Assembly: GCF_001510645.1 (NCBI RefSeq)
Contig: NZ_LMVB01000001.1
Span: 2,118,981-2,182,980 of the forward strand
DNA from: Paenibacillus sp. FJAT-29882
GTDB lineage: Bacteria > Bacillota > Bacilli > Bacillales > DSM-1321
DNA: 64,000 nt
Reading direction: 5' to 3'
In this document: positions 31,519 to 44,838 of the stretch, one piece after another
Layout of the letters: every line of letters begins with the position of its first letter
How positions within the stretch are numbered: the stretch's first letter is position 1
Made by a program: the position numbers and the translations under genes
Notes under the pieces: generated by a model
The model's input: the letters and a program-made list of their open reading frames with translations, nothing else
Databases searched by the model: none
What the model was told of the DNA's origin: nothing

Positions 31519-31626
31519 ATTTTCTATAACCTTCCATCAAATACTCACTCCAAATTTAATTCAAAAACAAAATGTAGTCTTTTAGAACCATTTATCATAA
31601 TGCTAACAAGTGATAAAATACCCATT

Positions 31627-31768
31627 AGGCAAATTTTACGAAAGTAAAAGACGCAAAGCCACGGACCTAAGGTTTTTAACTATGGTAGCCGGTTGCCAAG
31701 GTTTTTTTATCTTGTAATTGAAACATTCTTTCAAATTTGCCTTATCATAATGAAAGAAGGTTTTCAAA
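31627..31768 (+). ncRNA. c-di-GMP-I (GEMM-I) riboswitch with expression platform
   Basis: The aptamer covers 31627-31698. P1 is GGCAA (31628-31632) with TTGCC (31693-31697). A TTTTAC-GAAA-GTAAAA hairpin (31634-31649) carries the GNRA tetraloop. ACGCAAAGCCACGG (31651-31664) and ATGGTAGCCGG (31682-31692) are the conserved cores of GEMM-I. A run of seven T (31702-31708) follows P1. Further on, AAATTTGCCT (31733-31742) is a perfect complement of AGGCAAATTT (31627-31636), and TTCTTTCA (31726-31733) pairs with TGAAAGAA (31751-31758), which covers the cheY-like gene's ribosome binding site. Ligand binding is predicted to turn expression off. Confidence 0.93.
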
Positions 31769-32131
31769 ATTAAATCAGTTCTACTTGTTGACGACTCTAA
31801 ATTTATGCGCACTATTCTTAAGAAGCTTGTAAACAGTAAAGATTACTCTATACTTAGCGAGGCAAGTAATGGTATTGAAGCCATTGAGCAATACGGTTTT
31901 TTTCGTCCTGATGTAGTAATACTGGATATTACAATGCCGATTATGAACGGAATAGAAGCCTTAAAAAGCATCTTAAACAATGATCCCAAAGCCAATGTGA
32001 TCATGTGTTCTGCTCTAAGTCAAAAGTATTTAATAAACGAAGCACTTGACTTGGGTGCTAAGGGATTTATTGTAAAACCAAATTTTGATAACATTCTTGA
32101 TATTTTACAAAGTATTGTTCCTAACAGATAA
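31769..32131 (+). CDS. CheY-like single-domain response regulator, riboswitch-controlled, ATT start
   Basis: A 120-residue receiver domain. With the ATT at 31769 as start, the protein begins MKSVLLVDDSKFMRT; Asp8 and Asp9 form the acidic pocket, Asp53 (ILDITMP) is the phosphorylation site, Ser81 (MCSALSQ) the switch Ser/Thr and Lys103 (FIVKP) the conserved lysine. It has no output domain and is closest in pattern to Bacillus CheY. No ATG, GTG or TTG lies between the upstream TGA and the ATG at 31805, which would delete strand 1 and the acidic pocket. AAGAAGG precedes the ATT by eight bases. It is transcribed against the phage operon, as a lysogenic gene. Confidence 0.88.
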   Translation: MKSVLLVDDSKFMRTILKKLVNSKDYSILSEASNGIEAIEQYGFFRPDVVILDITMPIMNGIEALKSILNNDPKANVIMCSALSQKYLINEALDLGAKGFIVKPNFDNILDILQSIVPNR

Positions 32132-32480
32132 CTTTCCTTATTTCAGTAGACAATGAATTAGTGGGGCAAGGTGTTCAGTCAGGTAAACTACTCCACCATC
32201 GAGCCTTGTTCTTTCTTATGTTTTTTATAAAAAATTAAACATTTATTCATAGTTTAGTAACATCTTCTCGGTAAGATAAAGAAGTGAAGAGACCCCTACC
32301 TTTTTCAAAAGTATCACATTAATTTGTCCGGCAAATGCCGGATTTTTTTGTGTTTTACGAAGATGCAGTAAATCTGCTTCTCTTTCCCCCCCCATATCTC
32401 TGGTATTTAGAGAGTAAATTCTATCCTTAAGTATATTTTTTTCATTTTTATCCAGTCTATAATAATCGGAGGTGATTTTA
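32132..32480 (+). other. Intergenic region after the CheY-like gene
   Basis: No convincing gene. It holds a loose hairpin (GGCAAGG near 32164 with CCTTG near 32203) that may end the cheY-like transcript, the strong terminator at 32327-32349, and a TATAAT at about 32457 that could serve the following small gene. Confidence 0.5.
32327..32349 (+). terminator. Rho-independent terminator
   Basis: TCCGGC-AAAT-GCCGGA followed by seven T on the plus strand, 196 bases downstream of the CheY-like gene. Confidence 0.85.
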
Positions 32481-43636: not shown

Positions 43637-43680
43637 AAGGAGTATAGATAGACCTTAAAAATGAAAGGTTGTGGAATATA

Positions 43681-44838
43681 TTGGCATACTTCCGGAAAGT
43701 GAAAGCAAAAAATAAAAAAGGATATACTTGGGCATTTACGATTGAAATTGGGATTGATCCTGAAACAGGAAAAAGAAAACAACTCACACGAAGAGGTTTT
43801 GAAACTAAAAAAGATGCAGAGATGGCTTCAGGAAAGATTCAACAGGAAATAGAGAATGATGAATTTATTCAACCGAAAAAGGTACTTGTAAAAGATTTTA
43901 TGGTCGACTGGCTAAATAATATTGCTAAACAAAATGTTAAGCCTTCTACTTTTGCTGGTTATAAAGGGGTTGTTGCTAAAAGGATCATTCCTATATTCGG
44001 GGCTTTAAAACTAGAACAACTAAAACCTATTATGATTACAAAATATTATAATTCACTCTTAGAAGAAGGATTATCTGAGGAATATATTGATTATATACAT
44101 TCTATTCTTAAAACATCCTTAAATACTGCTGTAAAATGGGAATTCATTAAAACAAATCCTGTTGTAAAAGCTGATAAACCTTCTCTTAAGAAAAAAAGCG
44201 TTTCAACATGGAGTATAGAAGAATGTAATGCATTTCTCTCCAAAGCGAACGAAGACAGCAAACCTCATTTTTATATTTTGTATTTATTAGCAATCTATAC
44301 TGGAATGAGACGAGGAGAAATATTAGGATTGAAATGGAGCGATATTATTTTTACCCAAAAGAAAATAAGTATTGCTAGGACTCTATATTATATCCACGAT
44401 CAAGGTATTATTGAACAATCGACCAAAAACGACGGATCAACTCGTGTAATTTCTATATCTGATATGGTAATAAACGAACTAAAAAAACATCAATTGTGGC
44501 AGAAAGAACGTAAACTAGAATATGGTATCCCCTATTCAGAAGATGGATATATAACAGCTAATCACAAAGGCGAAGCATTGAATCCAAATTACGTTTATAA
44601 TCATTTTGTAAAAATGACTAAGAAAGCAGGATTAAAGAAAATACGCTTCCATGATTTACGTCATACACATGCTACAATTATGCTGCAGCTAGGAGAACAT
44701 CCGAAAATCGTCTCTGAGAGATTAGGACATTCTTCAATCGAAATGACGATGAATACCTATTCTCACGTTACACCAGATATGCAGCAAGATTCTTCTGATC
44801 GCTTTGAAGAGGCCTTAAAAAACGCGAAAAATCTATAA
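43681..44838 (+). CDS. int: Tyrosine integrase
   Basis: About 385 residues from the TTG at 43681 (AAAGG upstream; a TTG at 43669 is an alternative). An AP2-like arm-binding N-terminus (GYTWAFTIEIGIDPETGKRK) and SAM-like core-binding domain (VKDFMVDWLNNIAKQNVKPS) precede the catalytic domain with Arg in TGMRRGEILGLKW, His/Arg in FHDLRHTHATIML, His in LGHSSIEMTMN and Tyr in TYSHVTPD. It lies at the end of the prophage and is followed by GTGGTCAA repeats and the mutL terminator. Confidence 0.93.
   Translation: MAYFRKVKAKNKKGYTWAFTIEIGIDPETGKRKQLTRRGFETKKDAEMASGKIQQEIENDEFIQPKKVLVKDFMVDWLNNIAKQNVKPSTFAGYKGVVAKRIIPIFGALKLEQLKPIMITKYYNSLLEEGLSEEYIDYIHSILKTSLNTAVKWEFIKTNPVVKADKPSLKKKSVSTWSIEECNAFLSKANEDSKPHFYILYLLAIYTGMRRGEILGLKWSDIIFTQKKISIARTLYYIHDQGIIEQSTKNDGSTRVISISDMVINELKKHQLWQKERKLEYGIPYSEDGYITANHKGEALNPNYVYNHFVKMTKKAGLKKIRFHDLRHTHATIMLQLGEHPKIVSERLGHSSIEMTMNTYSHVTPDMQQDSSDRFEEALKNAKNL

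Follow-up and report, generated by a model that had tools for sequence, protein, structure and literature searches.

A candidate translational c-di-GMP riboswitch cassette with a CheY-like target gene, carried as prophage cargo

Which gene does a c-di-GMP riboswitch control when it is found inside a prophage, and in which direction may it act? Here, we address this question for the window, by which we mean the whole 64,000-nucleotide stretch of Paenibacillus sp. FJAT-29882 DNA that was analysed. Its preliminary description had placed a c-di-GMP-I riboswitch at 31627-31768 and had left the target unnamed; the target is a gene for a CheY-like receiver, located directly downstream on the same strand. 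Our main reading, to which we assign a probability of roughly 55%, is that the locus forms a self-contained cassette with a translational OFF switch on the CheY-like gene, and that this cassette is carried as prophage cargo. As proposed, it would comprise a promoter, a GEMM-I aptamer, a translational platform, the CheY-like gene and a terminator. At the level of sequence, the aptamer, the gene, the complement of the aptamer strand, the hairpin over the ribosome-binding site, their conservation and the prophage location argue for this reading.

A c-di-GMP-I aptamer is present in the leader

A covariance-model search gave a single RF01051 match in the window, at 31618-31700 on the plus strand (75.1 bits, E 6.3e-13, full model 1-87). 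The gathering score of this family is 35 bits, and RF01051 was the only Rfam family that reached its gathering score anywhere in the window. The claim of a c-di-GMP-I riboswitch is thus borne out, and this by the very search that had been suggested as a check on it. The stretch first described, 31627-31768, corresponds to the aptamer plus leader and ends one base before the probable start codon.

The GEMM-I core and the GAAA-capped P2 helix, both named in that description, are indeed found. P2 is the hairpin TTTTAC-GAAA-GTAAAA at 31634-31649 on the plus strand (RF01051 alignment; -2.5 kcal/mol on folding), its GNRA loop, GAAA, lies at 31640-31643, and the pieces CCUAAG and UAUGG in the RF01051 alignment are presumably the P3 receptor motif for this loop. 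A closing P1 helix, which had also been claimed, is doubtful: the alignment pairs G12-C37 and C13-G36, and the model contains no 5'/3' closing helix. Moreover, since 8 nt separate the end of a -10-like box from the aptamer GG, little or no 5' strand of P1 may be transcribed. The 5' strand of the aptamer itself, AGGCAAATTT (31627-31636, plus strand), is the proposed anti-sequestor strand.

According to the RF01051 alignment, the bases at the presumed ligand contacts are G31628, the pair G31629-C31654, A31655 and C31696/31697. We take these to be the equivalents of G20, G21-C46, A47 and C92 in Vc2 numbering, and we assume that a G at the first contact position (31628) fits c-di-GMP and not cGAMP. 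The RNA of 31618-31700 is expected to bind c-di-GMP.

The host genome (5.3 Mb in 21 contigs, same genus as Peribacillus loiseleuriae) contains ten RF01051 matches above the cut-off, the window's aptamer among them, and five GGDEF matches. The possibility that P2 is specially weak in the unit was rejected, as the P2 helices of the genome's other GEMM-I leaders fold at -1.2 to -4.6 kcal/mol, against -2.5 kcal/mol here. Two of the matches, L004 (C15:251011) and L009 (C1:801849), each lie upstream of a SinI-type anti-repressor (PF08671 scores of 37.2 and 46.7 bits, against a cut-off of 31.4). In Bacillus methanolicus, sinI has previously been listed with a putative c-di-GMP riboswitch in front of it (excerpts of PMC4342826). 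Near-identical GEMM-I leaders, L001 (C2:115067) and L002 (C16:193227), precede 61-residue Spo0E-like proteins (PF09388, 51.2 bits for the protein after L001, cut-off 23), and such genes would tie c-di-GMP to sporulation control.

The target is a CheY-like gene with a probable AUU start codon

The gene extends over 31769-32131 on the plus strand, stop codon included, and encodes a single-domain response regulator of 120 aa (PF00072, 96.4 bits). Its frame is closed by a stop at 31751; the first ATG, GTG or TTG comes at 31805, and starting there would delete the DDS motif. An ATT is located at 31769, 8 nt 3' of the Shine-Dalgarno (SD) sequence AGAAGG (31755-31760, plus strand, read by eye), and is probably the start codon. 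ATT start codons are known for infC, and an AUU start could add control via initiation factor IF3. The same ATT occurs in L041 and L042, so that a probable AUU start is common to the three Peribacillus copies. L133 and L157 were also considered as AUU starts and rejected, their frames containing a GTG that overlaps the SD.

The lack of ATG, GTG or TTG at the expected start position would also fit a relic, that is, a prophage copy devoid of a regulatory role, with a gene that lacks a normal start codon. We find this improbable. Apart from the shared ATT, the dN/dS ratio among the three genes is 0.19-0.25, which indicates selection to keep the CheY-like gene intact; the catalytic residues are retained, and the 37-nt half of the window's aptamer is an exact match to the pattern shared by its relatives.

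All the residues of a receiver domain (the DD pair, the phospho-Asp, Ser/Thr, the aromatic residue and Lys) are present in the window protein. In 22 unit proteins the catalytic set is complete save for L168, where the second acid is missing. Two host receivers share 46% and 44% identity with the window protein, and the one at 44%, which adjoins FliY-/FliM-like genes (named by eye), was taken as the host CheY. Since the NCBIfam CheY equivalog cut-offs are not reached (117.8 against 200 for CheY_Halo, 50.4 against 189 for PRK10610), we name the window protein CheY-like only. By analogy with CheY, it would have a role in the chemotaxis or motility of the host.

In a tree, which has long branches and an unsettled bootstrap warning, the 22 unit proteins together with L014 and L043 were separated from CheY and YneI-like receivers by a supported branch (100/95). 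The host CheY and the YneI-like receiver (named by eye) likewise consist of a single receiver domain with the same catalytic residues, but they fall on the opposite side of this branch. No Rfam riboswitch match was found in front of the L043 gene. The tree and the residue table cover unit proteins other than L158, L161, L164 and L165, and the tree was also built without L013, L015, L016, L018, L019, L022, L026, L027 and L036. L156 is labelled chromosomal in the tree, yet its flank (L184) holds phage-like ORFs.

Promoter-like and terminator-like sites may delimit the cassette

A promoter-like site, TTATCA-16-TAAAAT with a TG preceding the second hexamer, matches the consensus at 31592-31619 on the plus strand. 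The 1.1-kb stretch contains seven promoter-like sites, compared to 4.1 ± 1.9 in shuffles, and the promoter match is thus weak alone. Across 39 leaders, the distance from the end of the best -10-like box to the aptamer GG has a median of 8 nt and is 5-10 nt in 30 of them (a count uncontrolled by shuffles), which suggests that the RNA may begin at the aptamer. On the same strand, at 32326-32343, a scan found a terminator-like stem-loop with a T run, likely the end of the cassette; terminator-like sites in the 1.1-kb stretch number two, with 0.7 expected. The cassette's own promoter and terminator are consensus matches only, and the conserved blocks end near them. The ends of its transcript are placed there by prediction.

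A scan of the segment between the aptamer and the CheY-like gene revealed no terminator-like stem. This bears on the notion that the switch acts on transcription, through termination, and not on translation, as c-di-GMP-I switches of C. difficile do both in prophages and in the chromosome (excerpts of PMC7699646 and PMC6366702). A run of seven T at 31702-31708, 3' of the aptamer, could be taken for part of such a device, but it sits in the loop of a small predicted hairpin and is not general among the leaders read. Action on transcription therefore appears improbable to us.

The platform holds a complement of the aptamer and an SD-sequestering hairpin

The platform contains AAATTTGCCT (31733-31742, plus strand), a 10-nt exact complement of the aptamer 5' strand at 31627-31636. 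It lies in the loop of a predicted hairpin that sequesters the SD, the left arm of which is at 31726-31733 (folding; arms test on 36 leaders) and the right arm, overlapping the SD, at 31751-31758 (folding), both on the plus strand. Across the leaders, the complement of the 5' strand sits in the loop or in the upper 5' arm of this hairpin.

Of 39 leaders, 31 have TTTGCC in the platform, whereas 1.95 were expected and the maximum in 200 dinucleotide shuffles was 7. A looser test (at least 8 pairs, G-U allowed) was passed by 32 of the 39 leaders; in 100 shuffles the mean was 7.9 and the maximum 14. When 30 leaders were picked by the aptamer alone, 23 had TTTGCC and 27 had TTGCC. As to the exceptions, L164 has no complement, L161 has one only with a G-U pair, L133 and L157 have it only bulged, and L155, L156 and L182 show six pairs followed by a mismatch. 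Within the genome, the two unit leaders have complements of 8 and 10 nt in the same register; in its eight other GEMM-I leaders no Watson-Crick complement longer than 5 nt was found in that register. L013 and L014, CheY-like relatives with a decayed GEMM aptamer, retain the SD hairpin and read as a natural loss of the switch; TTTGCC is absent from their platforms.

On average, each arm of the SD hairpin pairs better with its natural counterpart than with one exchanged between leaders. When all 36 leaders were used, 0 of 5000 permutations equalled the observed fit, and for a set of 24 dissimilar leaders 5 of 5000 did so; in that set the natural counterpart was in the best 5 for 11 leaders and 12th or lower for 9. 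Conservation of the complement helix is evident across the leaders, which are related by descent, but clean compensatory change is not. An apparent covariation at the bases on either side of the complement, significant with 36 leaders, was dropped because the promoter analysis puts most of the flank bases upstream of the predicted transcript start; at the one flank position that is likely transcribed, covariation is weak in the dissimilar set (406/5000).

Folding of the two states points to an OFF switch

We compared the folding of 36 leaders with the aptamer imposed and with the complement helix imposed; L133, L157 and L164, which offer no anchor, were left out. The median openness of the SD was 0.175 in the aptamer state and 0.48 in the complement state; 33 of the 36 leaders showed the greater openness in the latter. 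For three Peribacillus leaders the automatic choice of SD was ATGAAAGA rather than AGAAGG. Thirteen leaders were folded separately with hand-chosen SD sites, and the window then gave an openness of 0.16 in the aptamer state and 0.64 in the complement state.

The energy difference between the states had a median of -0.05 kcal/mol (range -7.8 to +5.6) and was within 2.5 kcal/mol in 23 of 36 leaders, values which depend on the stretch folded (0.8 vs 3.9 for L003) and come from nested folding, which ignores a pseudoknot that could retain both helices and leaves the ligand energy outside the model. Five leaders (L153, L158, L161, L003 and L166) disfavour the complement state by 3.5-5.6 kcal/mol, and eight of the 36 favour it by 3.4-7.8 kcal/mol. 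In 8 of 13 complement-state structures the GAAAG of the P2 loop pairs with the left arm of the hairpin (by eye).

It seems that the two states could work as follows. At low c-di-GMP, as in motile cells, the 5' strand of the RNA would pair with the complementary stretch in the SD hairpin loop, and the GAAAG of the P2 loop could also pair with the left arm; the hairpin would be broken, the SD would be open and the CheY-like protein would be made. When c-di-GMP rises, the aptamer would keep its 5' strand, the hairpin would re-form over the SD and translation would drop. Binding of the ligand should shift the balance toward the closed state, and the direction suggested by the folding model is that of a translational OFF switch.

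The opposite direction would result from a pseudoknot ON switch, in which pairing of the 5' strand with the loop locks the closed SD hairpin when no ligand is bound, and the ligand frees a weak hairpin. In the window the two helices, 31627-31636/31733-31742 and 31726-31732/31752-31758, can cross without shared bases (by eye), and the complement is separated from the right arm by 9 nt, which is compatible with an H-type pseudoknot. However, in L153, L180 and L129 the hairpin alone hides the SD (openness 0.02 with the aptamer formed). Since this is so in several leaders, removing the 5' strand would not switch those leaders on. The frequent pairing of the left arm with the P2 GAAAG instead also speaks against a locked hairpin. 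We consider the ON switch unlikely and retain the OFF switch as the preferred reading.

The cassette lies in a prophage, on the strand opposite to the phage operons

The genes around the riboswitch include those for an integrase (43669-44838), RecT, YqaJ, RusA, XtrA, a replication-initiation protein with a DnaB_2 domain (PF07261), the terminase subunits and the portal. The prophage is inserted in the chromosome between miaA and mutL (host genes named by eye). The riboswitch lies on the plus strand, whereas the phage replication and late genes are encoded on the minus strand; the flanking gene content thus confirms the location first described. A unit that lies within a prophage and runs against the phage operons on either side has the arrangement of prophage cargo (a moron).

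The same genome bears a second such cassette, L003 (C1:2070792), with a Cys4 protein, in a separate mobile-looking region flanked by lexA and glnA (named by eye). The two cassettes are 79.8 kb apart, and both are held by the provirus call IMGVR_UViG_2728368993_000001 (114.8 kb; L121, L125, L128). Since host-type genes (glnA-, glnR-, hfq- and miaA-like) lie between them, this call probably merges two mobile regions. A unit close to a glnA-like gene was also seen in three families (L162/L190, L167/L193 and L178/L198, named by eye), and a glnA-like neighbourhood is where the two mobile regions of this genome sit.

Related cassettes occur inside and outside of prophages

Of 397 genomes of the order, 29 contained matches to an aptamer-only pattern (37 nt, up to 3 mismatches), at 32 sites in total; these genomes represent 17 of 135 genera. 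Among 398 genomes drawn from the class, three had the pattern, all of them from the same order. Of 30 sites read, 21 were followed by a CheY-like gene and nine by a gene for a small Cys4 protein; a 31st site, L015, likewise precedes a CheY-like gene, and the readings thus cover 31 of the 32 sites, the second G358 site lying outside. The Cys4 proteins are 61-73 residues long and, in an alignment of 12, display the motifs C-x-C-G and C-x-x-C; three of them reach no Pfam cut-off, and the one tested matched no NCBIfam model. In IMG/VR, a similar pattern matched seven stretches in six contigs, with a CheY-like or Cys4 gene in all seven. A wider pattern gave 12 stretches, these seven and five others: L133 with a CheY-like gene, L131 with an aptamer and no unit gene seen, and L130, L132 and L134, which are other leaders.

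Because neighbourhoods of terminase (phrog_2) caught only some prophages, we used homology of the flanks instead. Phage-like flanks were observed at 4 of 24 distinct places (25 loci), the phage-like ORFs numbering 20 of 24 in L148, 26 of 34 in L183, 10 of 28 in L184 and 11 of 28 in L191. The other flanks had 0-4 such ORFs, the unit gene included, and a chromosomal control stretch 0 of 15; the reference consisted of phages related to those in hand, and prophages of other types could be missed. Thus, relatives of the unit often lie outside recognisable prophages. In several lineages, the unit is carried by prophages.

In P. loiseleuriae, a copy outside a recognised prophage is homologous to the window only over 31571-32119, from the promoter to the gene end (80%); in a prophage of this species, homology at 88% extends over 31530-32355, and the adjoining xtrA stretch is shared too. 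The leader DNA gave no match at 1e-5 to isolated phage records; at E up to 1, matches of 34 nt of leader (E 0.5) in 15 Lactococcus phage records were taken as chance. Four plasmid records matched the leader DNA, the best at E 7e-5. The CheY-like protein matched 93 phage records, all at less than 60% identity, and 19 of the best 20 of these 93 carry no annotation.

The preliminary description had further proposed that the riboswitch lets the prophage read the motile or sessile state of its host. The presence of the riboswitch in a prophage is upheld by the RF01051 match and the phage genes, and such a reading of the host lifestyle is plausible. Yet the target is a CheY-like receiver and not a known phage decision gene, and the remaining 20 of the 24 places have no phage-like flank. 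The cassette reads more naturally as a host-type unit that is carried as prophage cargo.

Comparison with known c-di-GMP systems

One established link of c-di-GMP to CheY-like proteins is provided by the Cle subfamily, in which the protein binds it directly (excerpts of PMC6200980). A c-di-GMP riboswitch with a CheY-like target, or with the platform described here, was not found in the literature as judged by titles and abstract starts, with subscription journals thinly covered. Tentatively, and with clearly less confidence than we place in the cassette itself, we suggest that the cassettes represent an undescribed class of two-state c-di-GMP OFF switches. In this class the 5' end of the mRNA would serve as both ligand site and anti-sequestor, controlling a separate CheY-like lineage (and the Cys4 protein) across Bacillaceae-type genomes, and prophages would have taken it up several times as a c-di-GMP-gated handle on host chemotaxis.

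If this is true, c-di-GMP sets the dose of a CheY-like protein via RNA, by a device that phages carry. The cassette would then be an easily tested example of the gating of a prophage gene by host lifestyle, and also a compact candidate sensor by which c-di-GMP could act on translation in Gram-positive bacteria. Judging by its title, a study by Inuzuka (2018, Genes Cells) reportedly deals with a c-di-GMP-I switch that represses translation by masking a distant ribosome-binding site; the likeness to the window riboswitch, masking of the ribosome-binding site upon recognition of c-di-GMP, is drawn from that title alone.

Class I c-di-GMP switches acting on translation have been described, and Bc1, located before mcpE in Bacillus thuringiensis, is likewise a Bacillus c-di-GMP-I switch on a chemotaxis-type gene (excerpts of PMC11218506). 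According to the legend of a probing figure, its ribosome-binding site is trapped with the ligand present; it differs from the window riboswitch in having two terminators in its platform and a receptor as its target (PMC11218506).

Two c-di-GMP-I riboswitches have already been described in C. difficile prophages, and these, Cdi1_4 and Cdi1_5 (phiCD630-1/-2, phiCD119-like), are likewise class I aptamers inside prophages (excerpts of PMC3649979 and PMC7699646). They precede antitoxin RNAs of type I toxin-antitoxin pairs, and a terminated transcript was seen (PMC3649979, PMC7699646). Unlike them, the window riboswitch precedes a CheY-like gene and has a platform that looks translational.
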